From the NCBI GenBank assembly GCA_034521495.1, contig JAXHMK010000012.1:1-64000 (forward strand): a stretch of DNA of 64,000 nucleotides, given 5' to 3'. This stretch comes from Balneolaceae bacterium. Its GTDB lineage: Bacteria; Bacteroidota; Rhodothermia; Balneolales; Balneolaceae. The position numbers and the translations under genes were made by a program. Numbering within the stretch: the first letter of the stretch is position 1; every line of letters begins with the position of its first letter. The notes below the pieces were generated by a model. That model did not search any database, had not been told where the DNA came from, and saw only the letters and a program-made list of their open reading frames with translations. Positions 30,619-43,654 of this stretch are shown here, piece after piece.

Positions 30619-31288
30619 ATGATCGACGAATTTATCTCTTCGCTAAAACACAACCCCGAAGGCCTTTTCAATCCCTGGTATCATCGGGATGAGGAACACG
30701 ATGAAACGGAAGATGCCCCTGAAATTCGCCGTCATCAACTCAAAACCTATCTGAGTGAGCGGGTTGAAAGTGCGAAATATCTGTTCATTGCGGAAGCGCT
30801 TGGGTACCAGGGCGGGCATTTTACGGGAATAGCCATGACCTCCGAGCGAATTCTCCTGGGTCACCAGGAACCGAAATATGGTGTTCGTCCGGATCATGTA
30901 TTTCAAACGATCGAACCACAACGGACAAGTTGCCCAACTGTCATTGAAAAAGGGATGAGCGAGCCGACCGCAACCATCATGTGGGGAGCGTTGATCGATT
31001 TGGGTATCAATCCCTATGAAGTTGTTCTTATGGAATGCGGTACCGTGGCATCCGTACAAACCGGATCAGGGTTTACTGAGCAATCGAACGCCTGCGGCAG
31101 ATGAATTGGAAGCAGGGCTGAAGCATCTTACATCATTTATGAATCTCTTCAAAGATGTAAAAATGGTGGCAGTGGGCCGAAAATGCGAATTCAGCCTTTC
31201 TCAACTTGGGGTGGATCATATCCCGGTTCGGCATCCTGCAAATGGTGGAGCACCGAAATTCAGGAGACAGGTTAAAAATCTATTTTAA
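30619..31288 (+). pseudogene. Uracil-DNA glycosylase superfamily protein with one-base frameshift
   Basis: The first frame (161 codons) carries the N-terminal half of a UDG-like fold: Y-L-F-I-A-E-A-L-G-Y-Q-G-G-H-F-T-G-I-A-M-T-S-E. It then derails. Skipping the A at 31030 joins E-V-V-L to W-N-A-V-P-W-H-P, the conserved strand of the family, and continues to L-S-N-R-T-P and H-P-A-N-G-G, ending at 31288. The repaired protein is ~222 residues. The junction is CTT followed by A. The 3' end overlaps the convergent TonB receptor gene by 17 bases. Decay, sequence error and recoding are all open. Confidence 0.85.
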
Positions 31289-33923
31289 TCTCAAACGAGG
31301 GTTGGATTCCAAGATCATACACACTCACAATTTCAGATCGGATTGCTGGTACAGTATTTCTCGTAACAATCACAGGCTGATACTCTCTATACCAGGGATT
31401 CTGCTCATCCAAAACATTAAAGACAGAGAATTTTGCGGTGACTGAACTTCCGCCTAATTCTTTCCTGAAAAGTGCTGACAGATCCAATCGCTGATAAGGG
31501 CCAAGTCTCTCACTTTGGTTTCGGGCAAGATCATACGTTCCGGTTACGGATCCGCTGGCGATTATAAAAGCAGCGTATAGCTGGATGTTTGGCGTTATTT
31601 CGATTGCAAGATTTGTTGTAGCCGCATGCGTACGATCCCAAGGTGCTAAAAACTCTTCTCCATCATTAATTGACTCATTTCTGAGCTTCATGGATGAGAG
31701 AGTGTAAGTTTGTGTTAGAGTGAAAAAATCAGATCGAAAACGACTGAGAAACTCAACTCCTTTTCCCTCGCCCTCATTGTCAAAAAACCATGGAGAATCG
31801 GTAAATGTATTTGTAAGAGTTTGGGCATTCAATTCATGAGACCGGAGGTTTTCGTAATGTTTCAGATATCCTTCTGCCTGGAAATAAAGACGCCGAAACG
31901 GTTTTAGATACAAACCGGCTGTAAGCTGATTAACCGAGGAGGGCGGCTGGTTTTCGTTGGCAAGAATCCAAACATCTGCGGTTACGGCATTGCTAAATCC
32001 AACCCGATTGATGAACTGGTGATTTTTACTGTATCCAACACTCAGCGAGACGTTTTGATCTTCAAACAGATTTGCTTTAAGCCTCGGAGAGAATCTGAAA
32101 TAATTTCCGGCTGTGTAAAAATGAGTTCTCAGGCCCGATTTCAGTTCTAAAAAATTGTAGGGGTTCACCTCTGTTTGAGCAAAAAGATCTCCCTGAAAAC
32201 TTGAAGTTTGAGTGTAAAATTGCTGTCGGTCAAACGAATTTTCCTGGTATTCCCCGCGATGATAGATGCCGGTAAACCCGGTTTTAAGAGTGATAAATTC
32301 TGAAGAAAGATCGAAGGTTTGATCCAGTTTAGCCCGGTTCATTGTGCTTCGATTCAATAAAGGGTAGGTAAAAACAGTTGTTTGTAAAGACTCCCCAATT
32401 CGAGTGAAATTTGTGTACAAAAAATCATCTTTACTGAAGTATGTTTCGTAGGCACTCAGGGCAACTGTTGTATTACTGTAGACAGAGGTTGATAGTGATC
32501 TTTGATGTTGCGTGGAGAGAGCAAAATTGTTCCAGCGATTCTCAGTTTCAACCTCTGTAGCCCGGAATTGCTCTTCAGAGGGCCTGTTCCTGCTAAGCCG
32601 ATCGGCTAACTGACTTGTTCTGTCTCCACCAAAATACAAACTGGCCATTGTTCGGCTCCCGTCTTTCTGCTCAAAGTTAAATTTGCCATGGATATCAAAA
32701 TAATAAACATCGGAACTGCGGGGAGTAACCAGTTCTGAGTTGATATTTTGAGCAGAAGAGATCTCCGATCCCGGCCGGTTAATATCCAGTCCCCAGCGCA
32801 CGAGATGATTATTGTTGAACCATTCTAACTGGTTCATGTATGATGATCGTGCGGAGACCAGCCAACTGCTTTTTCCCTTTTTTAAAGGGCCATCTGCTGT
32901 AACTTTTATACTTGTATTACTAACTCCGGCTTCCACATCGGTGCTTTGAAGGGAACCATTTCGGGTTGTTAAGGAGAGCTTTCCGCCAATAGGGGAATGG
33001 ATATGTGCCGGTGCTACATCATAGAAAAAGCCGCTGTTTAAAACGGCATCTTCGTTGAAACTGTCTAACAGGCCAAAAAGATGACTTTGGTTGAATATTG
33101 TAATTCCATCCAGTTCAAGATGAAACCCATCAGGGGTGCTTCCGCGAACATTCAGGCCGTCATTCATAGCTGTAGTGGTTCCAACTGAAGGTAAAATTTG
33201 AAGGGCCCGAACCGCATTATCTTCACCAAGCGGGCTAAAGCGATCCGTTTTAATTAATCCATTCAGAGAGGAATCCTGAGGTGAATAGTAATTATTTCCC
33301 AAAACAATTATTTCCGATCCGGATATCGGCTCAGGGTGCATCCGGATAGTTAAATCCCGGATTTGCTCATTGGATGAGAGATCCAGCGAAAGGGTCGATT
33401 TTTTGTATCCAACGTATGATGCTTCAAGGGTTACTGTTGGTTGGTCGGGCTGAAGCCTGATCTGAAATCGAGCTGATTGATCCGTTACCAAACCCCGGAG
33501 TGAATCATCTATTCTCCAGGACAGGGTACTGAAAGGAAGTCTCTCACCGGACTCAGAATCTACAATCTGCCCTGAAATTCTAATGCTCTGGTTCGTGTGG
33601 AATTCTTCATCCATTGGAAGAACAATCAGTTGTCTCCCAACTGAATCAACCCGAACTGTAAGATCGTGCGGCCGAAGAGAGTTCTGTAAATCACGGACCA
33701 GGAAGCTTTGATCAGTATTCAGGCTGATCTCGAGGTCCGATACAAGTGATTCCCTGTATAGAAATGAAAATTCAGTTTGTTGTTCAATTCGGTTGAATAC
33801 TTCAATTGCAGAGATGTTTTCAAATTGAAACTCCTGGGCATAAGATGTAAAGGGCAAACTGAAAAAGATTAGAAATAAAATCAGAAATGAAATATTCTGA
33901 AGGAGCTTCTTAAAATGGGTCAT
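31272..33923 (-). CDS. TonB-dependent outer-membrane receptor with STN domain
   Basis: An 883-residue receptor. A signal peptide (~1-29) is followed by an STN signalling domain (about 32-105), which marks receptors that talk to a FecR-type anti-sigma, then a carboxypeptidase-regulatory-like domain (~112-200), a plug (~215-330, with L-N-V-R-G-S-T-P-D-G-F-H and V-L-N-S-G-F-F) and a barrel to the C-terminal F-E-I-K-I-D-F. It lies 8 bases downstream of fecR on the same strand. Ligand is unknown; no SusD partner is adjacent, so it is not a standard glycan SusCD pair. Confidence 0.93.
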   Translation of the reverse strand: MTHFKKLLQNISFLILFLIFFSLPFTSYAQEFQFENISAIEVFNRIEQQTEFSFLYRESLVSDLEISLNTDQSFLVRDLQNSLRPHDLTVRVDSVGRQLIVLPMDEEFHTNQSIRISGQIVDSESGERLPFSTLSWRIDDSLRGLVTDQSARFQIRLQPDQPTVTLEASYVGYKKSTLSLDLSSNEQIRDLTIRMHPEPISGSEIIVLGNNYYSPQDSSLNGLIKTDRFSPLGEDNAVRALQILPSVGTTTAMNDGLNVRGSTPDGFHLELDGITIFNQSHLFGLLDSFNEDAVLNSGFFYDVAPAHIHSPIGGKLSLTTRNGSLQSTDVEAGVSNTSIKVTADGPLKKGKSSWLVSARSSYMNQLEWFNNNHLVRWGLDINRPGSEISSAQNINSELVTPRSSDVYYFDIHGKFNFEQKDGSRTMASLYFGGDRTSQLADRLSRNRPSEEQFRATEVETENRWNNFALSTQHQRSLSTSVYSNTTVALSAYETYFSKDDFLYTNFTRIGESLQTTVFTYPLLNRSTMNRAKLDQTFDLSSEFITLKTGFTGIYHRGEYQENSFDRQQFYTQTSSFQGDLFAQTEVNPYNFLELKSGLRTHFYTAGNYFRFSPRLKANLFEDQNVSLSVGYSKNHQFINRVGFSNAVTADVWILANENQPPSSVNQLTAGLYLKPFRRLYFQAEGYLKHYENLRSHELNAQTLTNTFTDSPWFFDNEGEGKGVEFLSRFRSDFFTLTQTYTLSSMKLRNESINDGEEFLAPWDRTHAATTNLAIEITPNIQLYAAFIIASGSVTGTYDLARNQSERLGPYQRLDLSALFRKELGGSSVTAKFSVFNVLDEQNPWYREYQPVIVTRNTVPAIRSEIVSVYDLGIQPSFEIKIDF

Positions 33924-33931
33924 GCCTGGCT

Positions 33932-34927
33932 TTATTCAACGAATTGATACGTTTCCCCTTCAATTGAAGAAAAATTACCGCCTAATACAATTCCTAAATT
34001 TTCAAGACTGACCTCTTTGTTCTCTAATGATAGTGTTCCTCCTAAAATCTCGTTTTTTAACCGGTCCGGTACTTGTATATCAATAGAATAGTGATATTCA
34101 AGTTCTTTTATAATGGATTGAACCGTTCGATTGTTAAATACAATTTCATCTTGTTGCCAGGATGTAAATTCGTTTCCATTGGTTTGAACAGGCCTGGAGA
34201 TTTCAAAATCAGGGTTTACAGTAGCAGCTTCTCCCGGTTTTAAAACTACTTTTCCTGGTTTTTCTGATGAGTTGAGAGTTAATGAACCATCCTTGAGATA
34301 GACAACAGTTTCTCCCGTCCACTCGCGAATATTAAATGATGTTCCGGTTACCTCAATAACCCCCGGGCCGGCATCAACTAAAAATCGTCGGTTTTCCTGT
34401 TTTGTAACATCAAAAAATGCTTCACCTTCCAGTCTGTATCGTTCTGCCTCATCAGTTTGAGAAACAACAAATAGCCTGGAATGTGGCCGCAGTTGTATTC
34501 TGGTTTGATCGCCCAGGGTGTATGTAACTTGATTTGATTCCGCCCGGGCCAGTAACTCCGGCTGATCGGAATCAAGCTGCAGGTAGGCAACAGACAGCAG
34601 GATAGCAATTAAAAGAGCAGCTGCAACTTTCAAAAGCGAGGGTTTGTAGCTGTGTAAATGTCTTAAATTAATTTTGTCGCTACTTTCAACAGGGGTATCT
34701 GTTTTACCCTTCTGGATGCCTTCGGAAATATTATTCCAGGATTGTGATTTGCTTTTCGACAGCTCATTCTCATATCTCAGGAAAAGGTTTCTCTTGTGAT
34801 CGGCAATGAGATCAATGAGCGGATCTTCAATTGACTTTACGGAACGCTCCTGTTTGAGAGCAGTCCCAACCTGTTCAGCAAGCTTTTTGTCAGTTTCCGG
34901 TATTTGATTGTTGTCTGCCATATGCAT
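33932..34927 (-). CDS. FecR-family anti-sigma factor
   Basis: A 331-residue membrane regulator. The N-terminal ~95 residues are cytoplasmic and sigma-binding, there is one transmembrane helix at about 98-117, a FecR domain at ~130-225 (V-T-Y-T-L-G-D-Q-T-R-I-Q-L-R-P-H-S, V-E... G-T-S-F-N-I-R) and a C-terminal DUF4974-like STN-binding domain (~265-331). An internal ATG at codon 3 is an alternative start. In the family it transmits occupancy of the TonB receptor to a cognate ECF sigma factor; that gene is at 38.6 kb, beyond the DUF5666 gene. Confidence 0.92.
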   Translation of the reverse strand: MHMADNNQIPETDKKLAEQVGTALKQERSVKSIEDPLIDLIADHKRNLFLRYENELSKSKSQSWNNISEGIQKGKTDTPVESSDKINLRHLHSYKPSLLKVAAALLIAILLSVAYLQLDSDQPELLARAESNQVTYTLGDQTRIQLRPHSRLFVVSQTDEAERYRLEGEAFFDVTKQENRRFLVDAGPGVIEVTGTSFNIREWTGETVVYLKDGSLTLNSSEKPGKVVLKPGEAATVNPDFEISRPVQTNGNEFTSWQQDEIVFNNRTVQSIIKELEYHYSIDIQVPDRLKNEILGGTLSLENKEVSLENLGIVLGGNFSSIEGETYQFVE

Positions 34928-34933
34928 TAGAAA

Positions 34934-34969
34934 TAGCAGGCATTACCTATTTTTAAGTAATACCTGCTA
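34934..34969 (-). terminator. Intercistronic hairpin between the DUF5666 and fecR genes
   Basis: Arms TAGCAGGCATTAC (34934-34946) and GTAATACCTGCTA (34957-34969) pair over 13 positions with one mismatch, around a 10-base loop. It starts 21 bases after the DUF5666 stop and ends 6 bases before the fecR start. No T-run follows on the minus strand. An mRNA-stabilising or attenuating stem that uncouples the highly repetitive upstream gene from fecR is more likely than full termination. Confidence 0.55.
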
Positions 34970-34990
34970 CGGTTAGGTGACTAAATATTA

Positions 34991-37900
34991 TTAATCGTCA
35001 TCTTCATCTTTATCATCCTCATCGCCATCATCATTACCGTTGTCATCCCCGTTATCGTCATCCTCACGATTACTTTCGAATTTTACAGAGATCACTACGT
35101 TGGTATCGCCATCTGGCTGATAATCTCCTTCGGCGGTAACGGTAAATCCGTCGGATAATTCATCGGCTACATCCTGGAGGCTGAACAGGTCCCCGTCATT
35201 TTCGATGCTGGTATCATCGTTGAGGGTAAATGTACGTCCGTCTTCCAGTTGAAATGTTCGGTTGGAGATATTAACCGAGGTAACCTGGTCTTCGAATTCT
35301 GCCGAGCCGGTATTTCCATCATCATCATCTCCATCATCGTCATTACCGTCATCTCCATCAGCATCATCATTACCGTTGTCATCTCCGTTATCATCGGAAT
35401 CATCATCTCCGTCAGAATCATTGTCGCCGTCTTCATTGCGTTCGACTTCAAATTCAACTTCAACGACTATTCTATCGCCTTCTTCGATGTAGTACTCACC
35501 TTCAGCTTCCACTTCGTCGCCATTGTCCAGTGCGTCTATCACATCCTGAAGTGTAGTGATGCCGTCTTCGCCCTCAATCTCCGAATCATCATTAATGAAA
35601 TAAGTTTGACTATTCAGAGTGAATGAGTTTGAAGTGGCTGATGTGACGGATCCATCAAAGTCGAACTCTTCGCGGTCGTCTTCATCATCTCCATCGTCAT
35701 CGGAGTCATCATCCCCGTCGTCGTTTCCATCATCGTCATCATCTCTGTTGCTTTCGAATTTAACGGATGCAACAAGTCTTGTACCATCTTCCTGTGGATC
35801 ATAGGTTCCTTCGGTTGTTACGACAAATCCATCTGCCAGGTCATTAGAAACTTCCTGGAGACTGAACAGATCGCCGTCATTATCAAAGTCAACATCATCA
35901 CTGAGAACATACACTCGATCATTCATCAGTGTAAAAGAGTTTGATGATGTATCAACAGACTTTACGCGCCCGCCGAATTCATTTTCGTCATCACTGTCAT
36001 CATCATCCTCACGATTACTTTCGAATTTTACAGAGATCACTACGTTGGTATCGCCATCTGGCTGATAATCTCCTTCGGCAGTAACGGTAAATCCGTCGGA
36101 TATTTCATCGGCTACATCCTGGAGGCTGAACAGGTCCCCGTCATTTTCGATGCTGGTATCATCGTTAAGGGTAAATGTACGTCCGTCTTCCAGTTGAAAT
36201 GTTCGGTTGGAGATATTAACCGAGGTAACCTGGTCTTCGAATTCTGCCGAGCCGGTATCTCCATCATCATCTCCGTCATCGTCATCGTCGCCGTCTTCGT
36301 CCCGGCGTTCAACATCGAATTCCACTTCGGTTACGATGTTACGTCCGTCACTATCCGTGTAATACTCACCCTCTGCTTCTACTTCGTCACCTCTTTGAAG
36401 GGCACCAACCAGGTCTCCGATGGAGTTGAGGTCGCCGTCAAATTCAGTGTCATTCGTTACAAGAAACGTCAGATCATCTATCCGGAATGTTTTGGCTGCG
36501 GCGTTTGCAGACTGCACAACACCGTCAAATTCAAATTCATCCCGCTCTTCTTCATCTTCCTCATCTTCGTCATCGTCATCTCCATTTCGACGTTCAACAT
36601 CAAATTCTGCTTCAATCGCAATATTATTATCCTCCGAATCTTTAAAATATTCACCTTCAACAGTTACTTTATCCCCTCTTTGCAGGGCACCTACAAGATT
36701 GCCGAGCGATTGAATATCATCGTCAAATTCGGTGTCGTTATTTACATGCAGCAGTAAGCCGTTCGTCAGTGAAAAGGTTTTTTCTGAAGCATCGGCAGAT
36801 TCAACAATGCCATTAAAAGGTTTTTCTTCGCGATCTTCATCGTCGCCATCTCCGTCATCGTCCGCTTCATCGGATTCAAACTTCACATTGGTTACAAGAA
36901 GTGAACCATCAGATTGGGGAGCATAATCACCTTCTGCTTCTATATCTACTCCCTCCGAGAGTGCAGTAGCAACTTCTTCCAGGGTTGAGTAATCGCTGTC
37001 TTCATCAAATACTGTTGATCCTTCAACAATGGTGTAGGTGTTTCCGTCTTCAAGATCAAAAGTACCGCCTTCGCTATCTGCAGATAAAACATCATCGTCA
37101 AACTCAAAATCTGCTTCATCATACTCAAGTTTTACTTCGGTAACATTTTTTACTCCCTCTTCGCCCGGAATGAATTCACCTTCGGCTTTTACGGTGTAAT
37201 CATTATCGATTGCCCACATCAGATCTTCCAGTGAGAAAAGGTCTCCTTCTTCATCAAAATTTGTTTCATCCGTTATATGATATGTATCACCGTTTTTAAG
37301 GGTAAAAGTGCCTCCCTCTGTATCGGCCGATTCAACAGTGCTTTCAAATTCAAGATCATCATCCTCAAACTCAAATTTCAGATTCTGTAAGATTTTTGCG
37401 CCATCTGCATTTTCAGCAAATGAACCTTCTGCCCGAACACGAATTCCTGCATCTAAAATGCTTTTAACATCGGTTAGTGTTAAAAGATCTCCTTCTGAAT
37501 CAATTTCTGTGTCGGTTCCAAACAGAAAAGTATGTCCATCCGATAATGTGAATTGTTGAGGATCTGATTCGGTATCAACAGATTCAACATAGCCTTCAAA
37601 TTCGTTGTCGGCAATAAGATTCCCTTTCTCAAGAGTTACTTTAAAATCATCCAAAATATTCTGGAACCGAAGAAGTGCTGTGCCATCTCCATTAAACTCA
37701 ATGGTACCGTTCACGGTTTTCATGCTCTCATCTCCGTTCAGGTTCTTGCTGATCATCATTTCGTAGGCAAGAGCACCTTCAACACTTTTTTGCAGGGAAC
37801 CGTCTGATAGTGTCTGTGAATTTATTTGTACATCCAGGAACTCAACGGTTAGTGTATAATCCCGCTTAATAACATTTCCATTCTCTCTCGTTACTTCAAA

Positions 37901-38536
37901 TTGGCCGCTCCCTTCGTGTAATCCTTCAATGGTTAGCGGACCACCGGTTGAGAGGCCCTCAATCAAAAATTCATCATTTCTTTCGTATGAAGAGTTCTTA
38001 TTCGGAGTGGTGATAGATCCCGACCGAAACCCGTTGTACTCAATAATTTCAATTAAATCACTATCTAAACGCGGGGAGTAGATATAGTTGCCCTCTGCAT
38101 CGTAGTAGATATATTCAAGTTCGGCGGTGGACTCTTTGATGAAATTTTGCTCGTTGATACTGCGGCTGAAATTAACTTGATGAATACCGGTGTCCGGATC
38201 ATAGCTATAGGAGTAATTATTGGCATTGGTCTCACTATTTTTTGCCATTGCAGCACCAAACACAGCAGATGCATACTTCCCTTTTTCTGTTGAATTCTCC
38301 GTGAAATTGCTGCTGGACGGGAGTGAAAAGGCATCATTTAAACTGGCAAAAATTCCATCTTTTTGATCGGATAGAGATTCGGCAATAATCTGTCCCGCAA
38401 CCTCAAGTTCTTCATCCGTTAATTCTTCATTTACAGTTGATTTATTAGAATCACTGATATCGCAGCCATAAAAGAGAACTGCAATAAACATTACAGTAGT
38501 TAAGCAAAGATTCTTAAGTAAATTCATTTGATCCAT
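34991..38536 (-). CDS. Acidic lipoprotein with nine DUF5666-like repeats
   Basis: An 1181-residue lipoprotein (lipobox L-F-Y-G-C, Cys25). After a ~310-residue unique N-terminal region come nine ~75-residue repeats of the DUF5666 type, each running F-x-x-x-V-x-S-(V/A)-(D/N) / F-x-L-x-(D/N)-G / V-x-x-x-T-x-(F/I)-(D/E) / G-x-x-V-x-(A/V)-E-G / V-x-F-(E/D). From repeat three onward they are joined by long Asp/Gly/Asn/Glu linkers, and the protein ends in an acidic tail. Repeats six and nine are nearly identical at DNA level. It sits between the ECF sigma gene and fecR. A Ca2+-binding or spacer role for the acid linkers is inference. Confidence 0.88.
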   Translation of the reverse strand: MDQMNLLKNLCLTTVMFIAVLFYGCDISDSNKSTVNEELTDEELEVAGQIIAESLSDQKDGIFASLNDAFSLPSSSNFTENSTEKGKYASAVFGAAMAKNSETNANNYSYSYDPDTGIHQVNFSRSINEQNFIKESTAELEYIYYDAEGNYIYSPRLDSDLIEIIEYNGFRSGSITTPNKNSSYERNDEFLIEGLSTGGPLTIEGLHEGSGQFEVTRENGNVIKRDYTLTVEFLDVQINSQTLSDGSLQKSVEGALAYEMMISKNLNGDESMKTVNGTIEFNGDGTALLRFQNILDDFKVTLEKGNLIADNEFEGYVESVDTESDPQQFTLSDGHTFLFGTDTEIDSEGDLLTLTDVKSILDAGIRVRAEGSFAENADGAKILQNLKFEFEDDDLEFESTVESADTEGGTFTLKNGDTYHITDETNFDEEGDLFSLEDLMWAIDNDYTVKAEGEFIPGEEGVKNVTEVKLEYDEADFEFDDDVLSADSEGGTFDLEDGNTYTIVEGSTVFDEDSDYSTLEEVATALSEGVDIEAEGDYAPQSDGSLLVTNVKFESDEADDDGDGDDEDREEKPFNGIVESADASEKTFSLTNGLLLHVNNDTEFDDDIQSLGNLVGALQRGDKVTVEGEYFKDSEDNNIAIEAEFDVERRNGDDDDEDEEDEEERDEFEFDGVVQSANAAAKTFRIDDLTFLVTNDTEFDGDLNSIGDLVGALQRGDEVEAEGEYYTDSDGRNIVTEVEFDVERRDEDGDDDDDGDDDGDTGSAEFEDQVTSVNISNRTFQLEDGRTFTLNDDTSIENDGDLFSLQDVADEISDGFTVTAEGDYQPDGDTNVVISVKFESNREDDDDSDDENEFGGRVKSVDTSSNSFTLMNDRVYVLSDDVDFDNDGDLFSLQEVSNDLADGFVVTTEGTYDPQEDGTRLVASVKFESNRDDDDDGNDDGDDDSDDDGDDEDDREEFDFDGSVTSATSNSFTLNSQTYFINDDSEIEGEDGITTLQDVIDALDNGDEVEAEGEYYIEEGDRIVVEVEFEVERNEDGDNDSDGDDDSDDNGDDNGNDDADGDDGNDDDGDDDDGNTGSAEFEDQVTSVNISNRTFQLEDGRTFTLNDDTSIENDGDLFSLQDVADELSDGFTVTAEGDYQPDGDTNVVISVKFESNREDDDNGDDNGNDDGDEDDKDEDDD
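35059..35326 (-). repeat. 268-bp direct repeat within the DUF5666 gene, copy A
   Basis: Encodes repeat nine of the lipoprotein. It matches copy B at 36004-36271 with only about four substitutions that I can see, including synonymous changes. The offset is 945 bases, exactly 315 codons, so the duplication kept frame. This is much closer than any other pair of repeats in the gene, indicating a recent internal duplication or gene conversion. Confidence 0.85.
36004..36271 (-). repeat. 268-bp direct repeat within the DUF5666 gene, copy B
   Basis: Encodes repeat six; partner of the copy at 35059-35326. Differences found by eye are GGCAGT for GGCGGT, ATATTT for ATAATT (Ile for Leu in the E-(I/L)-S-D-G segment), GTTAAG for GTTGAG and TATCTCC for TATTTCC. 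The flanking Asp-rich linkers have diverged, so the duplicated unit is the folded repeat plus its immediate edge. Confidence 0.85.
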
Positions 38537-38605
38537 TATTCCATGATTTCTATGATTGATTTACCCTTACTACAGTTTTGGGTTAGGGGTACCCCTAAGG
38601 ATTTC

Positions 38606-39187
38606 TCAAATTTTCTTAAATATTTTTAATTCTTTCCGCAGATCTTTAAAAGCCAATGCCATATGGTTTTCAACGGTTTTTACACTTATAGAAAGTAATT
38701 TGGCCGTCTCTTTATATGTCAGGTCTTCAATAAAACAACTTTCAAACACTGCCCGTCGCCGTTCAGGCATATTAGAAACGGCTTTCATAAAAGCAGAATG
38801 TAAATCATTATATTCTGCTGTATCGTGAGGTGTTTTTGTTGTATCAATTTCGTGGTTTTCCAGATCAGCGTGATTGGGATTCTGCTTGACATAATTCAGC
38901 ATTCTTGTATAAGCAATACGGTAGAGGTAAGATTTTAACGAAAGGTCTGGTTTGATTCTTTTTCGATGTTCCCAAATATACAGAAACGCTTTCTGAATCA
39001 GATCTTCGGCAACTTCCCGAGACATATTTCTATTTCGCAGGAAGACGTAGAGAGCATCGTAATGTGCATCAAAAAATTTCTTAAAGGCTTTTTCATCGCC
39101 CATTTTAATAGCGCGATACAATTCTGATTCGTCTTCAGAATAGTCTGCGGCAAAGGCAATGAACAGTACAAGATCTATAAAAACCAA
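38606..39187 (-). CDS. ECF sigma factor of the FecI type
   Basis: An ECF sigma-70 factor (up to 193 residues). Region 2 covers about residues 24-95 with F-F-D-A-H-Y-D-A-L-Y, R-E-V-A-E-D-L-I-Q-K-A-F-L-Y-I-W and Y-L-Y-R-I-A-Y-T-R-M-L-N-Y. Region 4 covers ~130-185 with L-T-Y-K-E-T-A-K-L-L-S-I-S-V-K-T-V-E-N-H-M. The first ~20 codons are oddly hydrophobic for a sigma factor, so the true start is probably internal; M29 (39103) is the next ATG but cuts close to the domain. It heads the minus-strand set sigma, DUF5666 lipoprotein, FecR, TonB receptor. Confidence 0.9.
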   Translation of the reverse strand: MVFIDLVLFIAFAADYSEDESELYRAIKMGDEKAFKKFFDAHYDALYVFLRNRNMSREVAEDLIQKAFLYIWEHRKRIKPDLSLKSYLYRIAYTRMLNYVKQNPNHADLENHEIDTTKTPHDTAEYNDLHSAFMKAVSNMPERRRAVFESCFIEDLTYKETAKLLSISVKTVENHMALAFKDLRKELKIFKKI

Positions 39188-39344: not shown

Positions 39345-40193
39345 ATGAAAAAAATAATTTTATCTGTTTTTATCCTCTTTTTGCTTTCCGGTTGCAATAC
39401 TCTCAGAGACTTGTCAAATGTTCAAAAACCATCTGTAAGGTATAGCAGCATGTCTATTGATGATATCTCCTTCAGTGATGTAACTCTTCTTTTTGACTTT
39501 GAAGTGAATAACCCAAACAATTTTGGAGTTTCGGCCGATCAATACCGCTATGAGTTTTTTATCAATGGAAAGGAGTTTGTAACGGGTATTCAAACTGAAA
39601 ATTTGAGAATTGCCGGCGCATCAAAGAGTATTATCCAGGTTCCGGTGTCGCTTACGTTTTCCGAGGTTTTCGACACAATTGATTCAGCTGTGAGGCAAGA
39701 TTCTATTGCCTACCGGATATCCAGCGAGGTGCAGTTTGATCTTGCAGGTGTAAGTAAACAACGGGTTCCTGTTAGTGCAGAAGGTCAACTACCCATCCCT
39801 AAACTGCCTAAAATTGAGCTCAGCAATTTCAATATCAATGAACTTTCATTTTCCGGTGCGGAGATGGCAGCCTCTTTTCGGGTTCAGAATCCCAATTCGT
39901 TTGGAATTTCATTTGCTGATGCTTCCTACAATCTTACAGTGAATGAGAATGAATGGCTAAATACCACTCTGGAAAGAGATATTGAGTTGGGTGAATCAGA
40001 AAGTGAATTAATCACAATCCCAATCCGGTTAAACTCTTCCCAAATGGGGTCGGTTTTATTTGATATGCTCAGGGGCGAAAAGGAGTTCCCTTATACTCTG
40101 ACGGGATCAGCCCGGGTGTCAGCAGATATTCCGGGTTTCGATGGGTTTGAAGTCTTGCCTTTTAACATATCCGGCATATACAGATTGGATTAG
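39345..40193 (+). CDS. LEA2/WHy-domain lipoprotein
   Basis: A 282-residue lipoprotein (lipobox L-S-G-C, Cys17) with two LEA14-type (LEA_2/WHy) domains at about 33-135 and 155-275. Each shows the family strand pattern around F-x-V-x-N-P-N-x-F-G-(V/I)-S. Related bacterial proteins are envelope-associated and linked to stress tolerance, but a specific function is not established. It diverges from the ECF sigma gene across a 157-base region that must hold both promoters, so shared control is possible. Confidence 0.88.
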   Translation: MKKIILSVFILFLLSGCNTLRDLSNVQKPSVRYSSMSIDDISFSDVTLLFDFEVNNPNNFGVSADQYRYEFFINGKEFVTGIQTENLRIAGASKSIIQVPVSLTFSEVFDTIDSAVRQDSIAYRISSEVQFDLAGVSKQRVPVSAEGQLPIPKLPKIELSNFNINELSFSGAEMAASFRVQNPNSFGISFADASYNLTVNENEWLNTTLERDIELGESESELITIPIRLNSSQMGSVLFDMLRGEKEFPYTLTGSARVSADIPGFDGFEVLPFNISGIYRLD

Positions 40194-40325: not shown

Positions 40326-40468
40326 AGAAAGTAATTGAAAAGTACTGCTTGTATTGCATGTAAAAGAGTTATTTTTTAGGAAAAGTGTTGCCGGAGAACG
40401 GATTATAAAAATCTATAATTTGGTCAGATTTTTTTGTAAAGTTGATAAAGACTATTAAAACCGGGCAT

Positions 40469-43400
40469 ATGGCATCACGTACGTTTAACGCATTTCTTTT
40501 ATTTACGGTTTTCATCTCATCGCTGTGTATCGCCGATGTTGGATATGCACAGGAAAGCTACAACATCAGAGACCATAACTTTGTAGTTGCAAGAGATTTT
40601 ACCACGGAAAACGGCCTTCCCGCGAATGGCATAAATGGAATGTACCAGGATCAAAAGGGCTATATATGGGCGGCCACATACAATGGATTGGTACGATATA
40701 ACGGCCTGGATTTCAAGGTGTATAATATGAACAATCTTGAAAATTTGGAGTCCAATCGGTTTACCTCCGTTAACGAGGATCAAGATGGAAATATATGGGC
40801 AGGTTTAGAACTGGGAGGGTTTTTAGTAATTGATGCAAAAACAGATTCTGCCACAACATACTCGATTGATCCGGAGAAATATGGTTCTAATGTTAAAACC
40901 ACGGTCATTGAATTTGGGTCCGACAATAGAACATGGATTGGTACAAGTATAGGAGTTTTTGTTATGCAGGATGGAGAGATGACCTACCTGGATCATTTAC
41001 CCAATGAGTATGTAAACCACCTGGCATTTCGAAACGGACACGTCTATGTATTATTTACAAATCACCTTATCCAGTTACATCCAGATGGCACCGCCGTGCA
41101 TACCATTGCCCGGCTCAATAATGATTCGGTTCGTATAGAAAACTCTGTGGTGAACCGATTGTCGAATGTTGTTCAGTTTATGGACTTTCATTATGTAAAT
41201 AACGATTTATACCTGATGACTGAGGCCGGTTTATTGCGATATGATGAGGAAGCGGAAATTGTACTAACCAGTGAGGATGTAAATCAATCTTCTCTGCAAG
41301 GATTCTTGCCTCAAGAAGACACCATTTTTGTATATGGGAGAGATGGTATTTTTAGCATGAGTTTATCAGGCAGCCGTGAAATAGTTTACTACAGCCGGCT
41401 CAGCGTAATAGATCTTATGATCGATCATGAAGAGTCTTTATGGGCTGCATCACTATCCAATGGAATCGTGCAGTTTATATCTACACCGGTTTACCAGGGA
41501 GATGATTTCGCTACATTAGATCAACAGGGAATTACCGGGGTATTGGCGGGCCGTGACGGGGCTACATATGTGGGAGCAAATTGTGATGGTGTGTACCGTT
41601 TTACAGATGAAAATATTCAGCGATTTGGCGAGGAAGACGGCATCCAAAACGAATGTGTGTGGTCACTAATGGAACAAAGCAATGGCACCCTTTGGGTAGG
41701 TACATGGGGGGATGGAGTTTACTATCGCAGGACCACCGGACAACAATTTGAAAGATTCACTCCAGGTGAATTTCAGGATGTAAGTGTTTTCCTATCCATT
41801 TTTGAAGATAGTAATGGGTCGATTTGGTTTGGTACCTATTCTAATGGTTTATACAGGCAATCCAATTCTGAGATAGTTCCTGTAAAAGACAGCGAAGGTG
41901 AAACGCTTGCAGCAGTGCGGATGATCTTTGAGAGTAAAAACGGCGACATTTTCGTGGCTACTGATGAGGGGGTAGGAATATTACAGGGAAACGAAATTCA
42001 TGATATTCAAGCTGTATCTGAACTTGGCCTATCCAATTTTCGAACCATAACACAAGATGCTTCCGGGCGATTTTGGTTTGGCAGTTATGGCGGGGGACTG
42101 GTTGTTTATGAGCCGGGGGAAGAACCAAGAGTACTTTCTACACAAGATGGTTTGTTTGATAACACCATTTCCCAACTTGCCTTTGATGAGGATCAAGATT
42201 TGTGGTTGGGTGGAAATCTTGGAGTTTTCTATATCCCACAAGACCAGGTTAAAAGTTTCCTGAATGGAGAGATCGACCGGTTGCGTGTTTCCCGGATTGG
42301 GGTAAGCGAGGGCATGACAATTCGTGAAACAAATGGTGGATTTATGCCATCCAGCCAGTTGACAGAAAATGGCGAACTGCTCATTCCAACAGTTCAGGGT
42401 GTTAATGTGATCAATACACGGCGGATGGAACTTAATGAGGAGCCGCCAAATACGTTTATTGAGGAAATAGAAATTGATGGTCAAATCTACAGCCAAACGC
42501 AGTTAGAATCGATACCCCACAGTGCTCATCGAATTATTTTCCGATTTAGCGGCTTGAGTTATAAAAATCCGGAATATAACCGCTACGAGTATATGTTGGA
42601 GGATTTCGATCAGGATTGGTTAAGTGCAAGAAACAGTGGTGAAGCGATCTATTCCATGATTCCAGCGGGAGACTATTCGTTTAAAGTCAGAGCATCAAAT
42701 AACGACAGGGTTTGGAGCACTCAGGCAGCAACCATTTCATTTAGTGTAGATCCGCCATTTTGGCAAACCATTTGGTTTTACCTTGGTATTGTAGCTTTAT
42801 CGGGTATTCTTATTGTTGTGGCATTTCGGTATCGGTTGAGAAGCATTCAAATATATAATCGGCAGCTTGAGCGGAAGGTTGATGAGAGGACCGAGGAGTT
42901 GAAAGTGTCGAACGAGGAACTCAAAAAGCATATTGAAGAGAAAAATAAGCTGCAATCCATTCTTGCACACGATCTCAAAAATCCGTTTTCTGCTATTCTG
43001 GGATATATAGAGTTGATTAAAAATGAGTTCGAGCAGAAGGGGGAGCATGAGCAGGTGGACATGATGAAAATGCTTCTGGACTCCGGGCGAAATACATTGG
43101 CTCTGCTGGAGAATTTGTTGCAATGGTCCAACTCAAAAGAGGGTGGACTGGAACCAAAGTTTGAATCGATTGACATAACGGAGTTAGTGGATCAAGCGAT
43201 TTCAATGACGGATGCCCAATCTACATTCAAGAATATTTTTGTTAGAAATTTAATTGAGAAACCCCATTATGTGCGGGCAGACCGGAATATGATATTGTCT
43301 GTGATTCGGAACTTGATTTCTAACGCTATAAAATTTTCGGGGAGAGATTCTATTGTGGAAATTTCGCTGGAAGAAAAAGATGATAAAGTAATTGTTTCTG

Positions 43401-43654
43401 TTGAAGATTCCGGTGTGGGAATTCCGCAGGAAGAACAAGACAAATTATTTACAGCAGAAAAAATGCAACAGAAAGTAGGAACCCAGGGAGAAAAAGGAAT
43501 CGGTATGGGGTTGATGCTATGCAAAGAGTTTATCGAGAAGCACAATGAAGAGATCTGGGTAACCAGCGCACCTAAAAAAGGGAGTACTTTTTCATTTTCT
43601 TTGAAAACAGCAACCGAGCACGAAGAAAAACAGGTTGATAAGTCTGAAGAGTAA
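40469..43654 (+). CDS. Periplasmic-sensing histidine kinase with Reg_prop propellers and Y_Y_Y domain
   Basis: A 1061-residue sensor kinase from the ATG at 40469; an upstream in-frame TTG at 40442 is possible. It has a signal peptide, then ~650 residues of two-component-regulator propeller repeats (I-W-A-A-T-Y-N-G-L, I-W-F-G-T-Y-S-N-G-L, L-W-V-G-T-W-G-D-G-V), a Y_Y_Y domain, a transmembrane helix near 770, a coiled coil and a HisKA domain with His834 in L-A-H-D-L-K-N-P-F. The HATPase has N-L-I-S-N-A-I-K-F-S, D-S-G-V-G-I-P and G-I-G-M-G-L. The propeller architecture is the one seen in glycan-sensing hybrid systems, but no receiver or AraC domain is fused and no regulator gene is adjacent. Confidence 0.92.
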   Translation: MASRTFNAFLLFTVFISSLCIADVGYAQESYNIRDHNFVVARDFTTENGLPANGINGMYQDQKGYIWAATYNGLVRYNGLDFKVYNMNNLENLESNRFTSVNEDQDGNIWAGLELGGFLVIDAKTDSATTYSIDPEKYGSNVKTTVIEFGSDNRTWIGTSIGVFVMQDGEMTYLDHLPNEYVNHLAFRNGHVYVLFTNHLIQLHPDGTAVHTIARLNNDSVRIENSVVNRLSNVVQFMDFHYVNNDLYLMTEAGLLRYDEEAEIVLTSEDVNQSSLQGFLPQEDTIFVYGRDGIFSMSLSGSREIVYYSRLSVIDLMIDHEESLWAASLSNGIVQFISTPVYQGDDFATLDQQGITGVLAGRDGATYVGANCDGVYRFTDENIQRFGEEDGIQNECVWSLMEQSNGTLWVGTWGDGVYYRRTTGQQFERFTPGEFQDVSVFLSIFEDSNGSIWFGTYSNGLYRQSNSEIVPVKDSEGETLAAVRMIFESKNGDIFVATDEGVGILQGNEIHDIQAVSELGLSNFRTITQDASGRFWFGSYGGGLVVYEPGEEPRVLSTQDGLFDNTISQLAFDEDQDLWLGGNLGVFYIPQDQVKSFLNGEIDRLRVSRIGVSEGMTIRETNGGFMPSSQLTENGELLIPTVQGVNVINTRRMELNEEPPNTFIEEIEIDGQIYSQTQLESIPHSAHRIIFRFSGLSYKNPEYNRYEYMLEDFDQDWLSARNSGEAIYSMIPAGDYSFKVRASNNDRVWSTQAATISFSVDPPFWQTIWFYLGIVALSGILIVVAFRYRLRSIQIYNRQLERKVDERTEELKVSNEELKKHIEEKNKLQSILAHDLKNPFSAILGYIELIKNEFEQKGEHEQVDMMKMLLDSGRNTLALLENLLQWSNSKEGGLEPKFESIDITELVDQAISMTDAQSTFKNIFVRNLIEKPHYVRADRNMILSVIRNLISNAIKFSGRDSIVEISLEEKDDKVIVSVEDSGVGIPQEEQDKLFTAEKMQQKVGTQGEKGIGMGLMLCKEFIEKHNEEIWVTSAPKKGSTFSFSLKTATEHEEKQVDKSEE

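Follow-up and report, generated by a model that had tools for sequence, protein, structure and literature searches.

The window analyzed here is a 64,000-nt stretch of DNA from a Balneolaceae bacterium (positions 1 to 64,000 of contig JAXHMK010000012.1, assembly GCA_034521495.1), and this study concerns a four-gene signaling locus on its minus strand, on which all features below lie unless stated otherwise. In order, the genes encode an extracytoplasmic function (ECF) sigma factor (38606..39187), a lipoprotein of 1181 aa that we call LipA (34991..38536), a FecR-type sigma regulator (33932..34927) and a TonB-dependent receptor (31272..33923), with gaps of 69, 63 and 8 nt between them. Open reading frames (ORFs) and family models agree with a preliminary description of this DNA, which had reported these four genes, the nine DUF5666 repeats of the lipoprotein and its acidic linkers. 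The span highlighted there, 34991-39187, holds only the sigma and LipA genes, and the FecR and receptor genes lie just beyond it.

The sigma factor, listed with a TTG start, matches TIGR02985 with an E-value of 2.2e-38 (132 bits, cut-off 126.4), which identifies it as an ECF sigma factor. The regulator scores above cut-off for FecR and FecR_C (PF04773, 53.1 bits; PF16344, 30.7 bits), as a FecR-type protein should, and one transmembrane stretch is visible by eye. CarbopepD_reg_2 is the sole family above cut-off in the window's receptor and assigns it to the TonB-dependent receptors; the same domain is found in all seven receptors aligned, and Plug in four of the seven, the window's receptor not being among those. 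The receptor profile has a single match to a solved structure at E ≤ 0.001, an 85-residue chain of a SusC homologue (E = 9.6e-06). Most of 34 sigma proteins also display, by eye, a short hydrophobic N-terminal stretch ahead of region 2 (LVLFIAFA, LILALS; 39150-39187 in the window), which would be an uncommon feature in a soluble sigma protein, or else the start codon has been misread.

LipA begins with a lipoprotein signal peptide and lipobox (aa 1-25, 38462..38536; LFYGC with the cysteine at aa 25, by eye), followed by a conserved 281-aa domain (LipA domain, aa 26-306, 37619..38461) that matches no Pfam or NCBIfam model above cut-off. A structural model of this domain built from 31 sequences (mean predicted local distance difference test score (pLDDT) 86.4, predicted template modeling score (pTM) 0.85) consists of an N-terminal helix and about 11 longer strands in a predicted beta-barrel. 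Foldseek returned nothing for it at E ≤ 0.001, and in a second structural comparison autotransporter barrels came out best (EspP, 8bo2_P, Z 13.4, root-mean-square deviation 4.8, 208 aligned residues). Most strands of the model have one conserved face, and the other face is variable and polar. Despite the autotransporter-like fold, we rejected a barrel embedded in the outer membrane because of this variable polar face on most strands; for the same reason the domain is more likely a water-soluble barrel, the conserved face presumably being its interior. A sequence comparison with the PDB gave a haem oxygenase (E = 0.62) as its only match at E ≤ 1, which we attribute to chance.

The LipA domain is encoded by 9 of 28 genomes in the genus, by 73 of 128 in the order and by 93 of 244 in the class, and it occurs in 35 of the 89 genera searched. 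A scan of named genomes yielded 30 LipA loci, including loci from Rhodohalobacter, Gracilimonas and Balneola, and these were combined with part of 102 class-wide places to give 81 LipA proteins (the window's included), 69 of them distinct. Among the 69 distinct loci, a sigma gene lies ahead of LipA in 55, a FecR gene behind it in 59 and a receptor gene behind it in 54, and all four genes are present in 47. Contig ends cut 12 of the 22 incomplete loci, and three others lack only a recognizable sigma gene (L088, L105 and L119). Since homologues in the same order are found in many other genomes, the module is not a chance assembly.

The association is also seen from the receptor side. The genomes of the order contain 70 places where the receptor scores at least 430 bits, and in 59 of them LipA is found no more than 6.5 kb upstream, on the same contig and strand; ten of the remaining 11 have a contig end on the upstream side within ~1.5 kb, the eleventh being G106:C294. 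Counted by genome, 63 have LipA and the receptor, two the receptor only (G072 and G124, both cut by contig ends) and ten LipA only. In the genus, receptor matches with E < 1e-100 occur in all nine LipA-positive genomes and in G072, where the 5.3-kb contig leaves only ~135 nt upstream of FecR. Two broken or partial receptors below 430 bits come from genomes without LipA (G127 and G012). The sigma-LipA-FecR-receptor order is conserved, and the signaling module is widespread in the class.

The gap between the sigma and LipA genes contains a candidate sigma-dependent promoter, TTAGGGG-N17-TGTAGTAA (38567..38598), and the same TTAGGGG-N17-TGTA element is seen in many relatives (L044-L086). A strict motif, TT[AG]GGGG-N15-18-TGTA, is found close to the start of LipA in 47 of the 69 loci, compared with 19 occurrences elsewhere in 2.22 Mb-strands. 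It was written from loci inside the 69, and among the 34 loci that had not been viewed beforehand (L087 onward) it is found in 13. Among loci without the strict motif there are TAGGGG variants, chiefly outside the order. With a relaxed motif, T[AG]GGGG-N16-19-TGTA, 57 of 60 module loci match and one of seven lone LipA copies (expectation 0.17, given 21 occurrences at other places in 2.17 Mb-strands; L097 and L098, with the start cut, were dropped), a count that is not independent because the relaxation followed inspection of the loci without a match. The single motif-bearing lone copy (L106) comes from G107, a genome with the module elsewhere.

Across 16 whole genomes, TTAGGGG-N16-17-TGTANTA gives 18 matches in nine of the ten LipA-positive genomes and none in the six LipA-negative ones, compared with two and two for the reversed pattern. 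Eleven of the 18 precede LipA, a second lipoprotein gene (LipB) or a carboxylase homologue. A housekeeping promoter was rejected on the grounds of three matches in the 4.57 Mb of the window's own genome and none in the six LipA-negative genomes. The conserved, module-linked position suggests a promoter that the module's own sigma factor would read. A survey of flavobacterial promoters (PMC9723704) describes an ECF-type motif whose -10 box is CGT, and TAGGGG was not found in the portion of that survey available to us. The best other match in the window's genome (G000:C4:42189-42215; L127, L227) precedes a gene of the histidine phosphatase superfamily; it overlaps the end of the preceding gene and may be due to chance. 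A further lipoprotein gene with a motif copy (L099:751-1605) separates sigma from LipA at another locus; judged by eye, it is possibly a paralogue of LipA.

Further motif copies in module loci lie ahead of LipB, which encodes a lipoprotein of ~235 aa with a polyaspartate tail and has no match in the window's own genome. LipB separates sigma from LipA in L062, L063 and L067, where each of the two lipoprotein genes has its own motif copy. For a count, 38 LipB places of at least 200 bits were taken, and G127, G064, G073:C200 and one of G012:C21 were dropped because they had no upstream DNA; the remaining 34 comprise 25 copies from module genomes (G124 counted through its receptor) and nine from others, each searched over ~220 nt. 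The strict motif precedes 19 of the 25 and none of the nine (p = 1e-4), or 17 of 21 versus 0 of 7 when counted per genome (p = 3e-4), with some remaining bias towards module genomes because the LipB profile was built from copies found through the motif. One LipB copy of G054 itself holds three DUF5666 repeats, and one LipB of G116 holds a repeat. Weak matches to DUF4382 (6 of 11 members) and MbnP (4 of 11) were obtained for LipB, the best MbnP score being 22.3 bits against a cut-off of 27.

A homologue of vitamin-K-dependent gamma-carboxylase adjoins LipB in several genomes. In G020 and G093 (where the gene is cut by a contig end) it has a motif copy ahead of it, and it also adjoins LipB in G062, G050 (with one internal stop) and G059. 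The genes beside LipB are L050:10022-11497, L228:6762-8228, L229:9156-9539 and L225:394-1848, those of L228 and L229 having their own motif copy. The protein contains an HTTM domain (E = 4e-87) and, where complete, the VKGC lumenal domain (E = 1.5e-36), and it matches a solved vitamin-K-dependent gamma-carboxylase (9wfn) with an E-value of 8e-41. In the genus, all nine genomes with LipA, and none of the 19 without it, encode a carboxylase homologue (E ≤ 1e-20); in five of the nine, however, it is exclusively of a second, more distant type, and the match may simply reflect two lineages within the genus. Over the order, the homologue is present in 36 of 73 LipA-positive and 7 of 55 LipA-negative genomes.

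The window's genome encodes a carboxylase homologue of the second type on G000:C9 (L218:7481-8851; 36% identity, 277 bits with the VKGC profile). It belongs to a separate cluster without the motif, is followed by an 829-aa receptor-like gene and has neighbors that may be imelysin-like and DUF4856-like; L221 and L224 hold a similar cluster. One could imagine a bacterial gamma-carboxyglutamate (Gla) regulon, in which the receptor and sigma factor switch on the Glu/Asp-rich lipoproteins LipA and LipB and a vitamin-K-dependent carboxylase that makes calcium-binding Gla from some of their Glu residues. We consider this highly speculative and improbable; if true, LipA and LipB would be natural substrates for a bacterial carboxylase of the vitamin-K-dependent family. 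Nothing on the carboxylase was found in the part of PMC7567364 that was accessible.

We propose that the locus is probably a Fec-type cell-surface signaling module with LipA as its first sigma-dependent gene, with positive feedback and with LipA working together with the receptor. The sigma gene would come first, and a sigma-read promoter directly behind it would drive LipA and then FecR and the receptor. Engagement of the receptor by its ligand would cause FecR to free or activate sigma, and active sigma would in turn produce more LipA, FecR and receptor. The same sigma factor would also read the promoter ahead of LipB and sometimes that of the carboxylase homologue. The constant part of LipA would be a soluble barrel that cooperates with the receptor, most likely by capturing the ligand or by assisting the receptor; the abundance of LipA, its location and the capture of a ligand are, like the feedback, what we infer.

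The preliminary description had left open whether the lipoprotein is an input, a cargo or a target of the relay. The promoter data favor a target. Because the motif precedes LipA in module loci and LipB in module genomes, LipA is most likely a target of the sigma relay, and it is probably a partner of the receptor as well.

A hairpin in the gap between LipA and FecR may adjust the relative amounts of these proteins. In the window it lies at 34933..34970 (-23.5 kcal/mol, z -6.5) and is possibly an attenuator or an mRNA-stability element. The gap measures at least 35 nt at 36 loci, and the folding z-score is below -3 in 25 of these and below -2 in 26. In the E. coli fec system, according to the sections of PMC9249621 available, a FecI-read promoter lies ahead of fecA and a hairpin behind fecA lowers the downstream genes. 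Where the hairpin is present, LipA may likewise be more abundant than FecR and the receptor.

Several observations weigh against the proposed module. Seven of the 69 LipA genes have neither FecR nor receptor alongside (L096, L100, L102, L106, L116, L117 and L118), L096, L100, L102 and L116 being followed by only 1.6-2.3 kb of DNA, room for FecR and not for the receptor. In ten genomes of the order LipA is present and no receptor reaches 430 bits (G090, among these, carries a 315-bit receptor piece on LipA's contig), and four distant long receptors of 287-316 bits (G039:C130, G011:C1, G005:C6 and G005:C3) have no LipA alongside. The preliminary description had named the relay without this gene, and the gene without the relay, as the finding that would speak against a connection; with 59 of 70 receptors paired and those seven lone genes, the outcome is mixed. 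The 430-bit line behind the pairing was set after the list had been viewed, and the genomes are related, so that none of these counts represents independent events.

As regards the promoter, the motif was defined with loci that are part of the test set. The window's own genome has three exact TTAGGGG-N15-18-TGTA matches compared with five for the reversed pattern, so there is no overall enrichment, and seven of the 18 genome-wide matches precede other genes or none. Six of the 25 LipB copies in module genomes lack the strict motif, as do all five more distant LipB copies (181-194 bits, from the genus to which Balneola belongs) despite the presence of LipA. The hairpin is not general either: the LipA-FecR gap is shorter than 35 nt in 23 of the 59 loci with FecR, and ten of the 36 gaps tested have z > -2. 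Finally, no Pfam STN match was obtained at E ≤ 0.1 in the seven receptors, and their STN-like N-terminus was recognized by eye only.

LipA is tightly co-conserved with FecR and the receptor, and the conserved face of its barrel bears invariant polar residues. Both would also suit a LipA that regulates the relay in the periplasm or outer membrane by modulating the contact between receptor and FecR, its place in the operon then being that of a regulator and not of an effector. We regard such a role as unlikely, since the motif-linked LipB and carboxylase homologue resemble effectors, lone copies of LipA exist and the C-terminal arrays of LipA vary strongly.

The C-terminal part of the window's LipA matches DUF5666 (PF18914) with 113.5 bits against a cut-off of 27, six stretches being significant singly. 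With a profile made from repeats seen by eye and widened with relatives, nine DUF5666-type repeats are delineated: repeat 1 (aa 312-390, 37367..37603), repeat 2 (aa 396-472, 37121..37351), repeat 3 (aa 478-555, 36872..37105), repeat 4 (aa 573-647, 36596..36820), repeat 5 (aa 669-742, 36311..36532), repeat 6 (aa 765-840, 36017..36244), repeat 7 (aa 853-929, 35750..35980), repeat 8 (aa 959-1031, 35444..35662) and repeat 9 (aa 1080-1155, 35072..35299). Repeats 6 and 9 are identical at 231 of 234 bases and represent a recent duplication. The region of aa 306-1181 carries a net charge of -251.

Only 24 of the 69 distinct LipA proteins contain DUF5666 repeats (86 in total, 1 to 11 apiece). The other 45 show none (one of these, L099, is cut short of its C-terminus), and the 17 loci that come from beyond the order are all without repeats. 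DUF5666 is also present in other genes of these genomes. Thus, the array with its acidic linkers is an optional, lineage-specific extension with a large negative charge. The suggestion in the preliminary description that the gene is tied to the relay is borne out by gene order and co-occurrence, and it has to be transferred from the DUF5666 repeats to the N-terminal domain, because the repeats are restricted to those 24 proteins and the family also occurs elsewhere. In the genus, LipB is found in none of four long-array genomes and in all four three-repeat genomes (p = 0.03; G059, with both module types and 9% contamination, was omitted), so that long arrays and LipB seem mutually exclusive in a sample too small to build on.

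The preliminary description had also suggested that the array and acidic linkers form a cation sensor or a ligand-capturing element, to which the net charge of this region would be well suited. A model of three repeats taken jointly (12 sequences; pLDDT 92.4, pTM 0.73) has matches resembling the oligonucleotide/oligosaccharide-binding (OB) fold, including PilY2 and the copper and silver carriers CusF (Z 7.8) and SilF (Z 7.0). However, all Z-scores are at or below 7.8 and CusF and SilF tie with unrelated OB folds, so that these matches, below a Z of 8, may reflect merely a common fold. On visual inspection, repeats 2, 6, 7 and 9 seemed to hold convincing EF-hand- or dockerin-like loops, and a fifth match in the window, in repeat 8, is positioned by eye on a predicted strand. 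The EF-hand-like pattern is found in just 12 of the 86 repeats (shuffled repeats: mean 1.55, maximum 6), and we set it aside as a weak lead. Moreover, the 45 LipA proteins without repeats keep the same kind of operon, and an acidic composition is ordinary in salt-adapted proteins. We therefore find a sensing or capturing array quite improbable.

By eye, CCCC follows the GGGG of the motif in many loci and forms an inverted repeat with it (in the window, TTAGGGGTACCCCTAA), as would be expected if the motif were an operator or RNA element at gene starts and LipA were read through from the sigma gene, but this is very doubtful, since the TGTA box and the spacing of 16-19 are compatible with an ECF-type promoter, L062, L063 and L067 keep the motif ahead of LipA despite the inserted gene with its own copy, and the motif was not found in the six LipA-negative genomes, before the nine LipB copies of genomes without the module or before six of the seven lone LipA copies.

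Divergent genes upstream of the module, at 40442-43654 and 39345-40193, encode a LEA_2-domain lipoprotein and a large Reg_prop/Y_Y_Y sensor histidine kinase. In an initial set of loci, this pair adjoins the module only in L044 (= L057) and L045, and the LEA_2 gene is also present in L060. In L060 an additional ORF of 307 aa separates the FecR and receptor genes.

The module was compared with known systems. As in SusC/SusD pairs, a TonB-dependent receptor gene lies near a lipoprotein gene, and the receptor profile matches a SusC homologue. In contrast to the helical fold expected of SusD, the LipA model consists mostly of beta strands, and none of the 31 LipA members matches a SusD family at E ≤ 1; a SusD-like fold was not among the fold-search matches either, an absence that is uninformative. 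The repeats belong to DUF5666 by the curated cut-off, but here they follow an unrelated domain, in arrays of 1 to 11, within a signaling operon. In the open-access literature searched, as far as its accessible parts go, DUF5666 is named in four papers, only within lists or asides, and DUF4382 in one paper.

Methanobactin operons can hold an MbnI/MbnR/MbnT relay together with MbnP/MbnH (PMC3621798). Set side by side with the description available from that source, the present module shares with them the combination of sigma, FecR, receptor and a partner protein, and LipB is weakly MbnP-like, below cut-off; LipA differs in matching no MbnP model. In G034 a motif like that of the sigma factor lies ahead of a gene for an MbnH-like di-haem (CCP_MauG) lipoprotein (L226:4825-5979), which scores 253.6 bits against a cut-off of 362.85, and this motif overlaps the start of a long ORF on the opposite strand. 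We set aside a methanobactin-like copper system because the MbnP and MbnH matches are only weak, no search aimed at methanobactin genes having been made.

The closest parallel is to FecIRA of E. coli and its relatives. Both have an ECF sigma factor, a FecR-type regulator and a TonB-dependent receptor; the structural-gene promoter read by sigma has a candidate counterpart here and, going by the sections of PMC9249621 noted above, so has the hairpin behind the first gene. They differ in that here a lipoprotein gene lies behind the apparent promoter of the sigma factor and parts sigma from FecR, and FecR stands in the apparent target operon and does not adjoin sigma. Signaling of the FecIRA type was already known. 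As far as our searches of the open-access literature show, within the parts accessible, a lipoprotein family that is retained between sigma and FecR across many genera of one class, as the first gene after the sigma factor's apparent promoter, is a novel variation on it, and the predicted sigma promoter and regulon make the roles of this family, of DUF5666 and of the bacterial carboxylase homologue directly testable.

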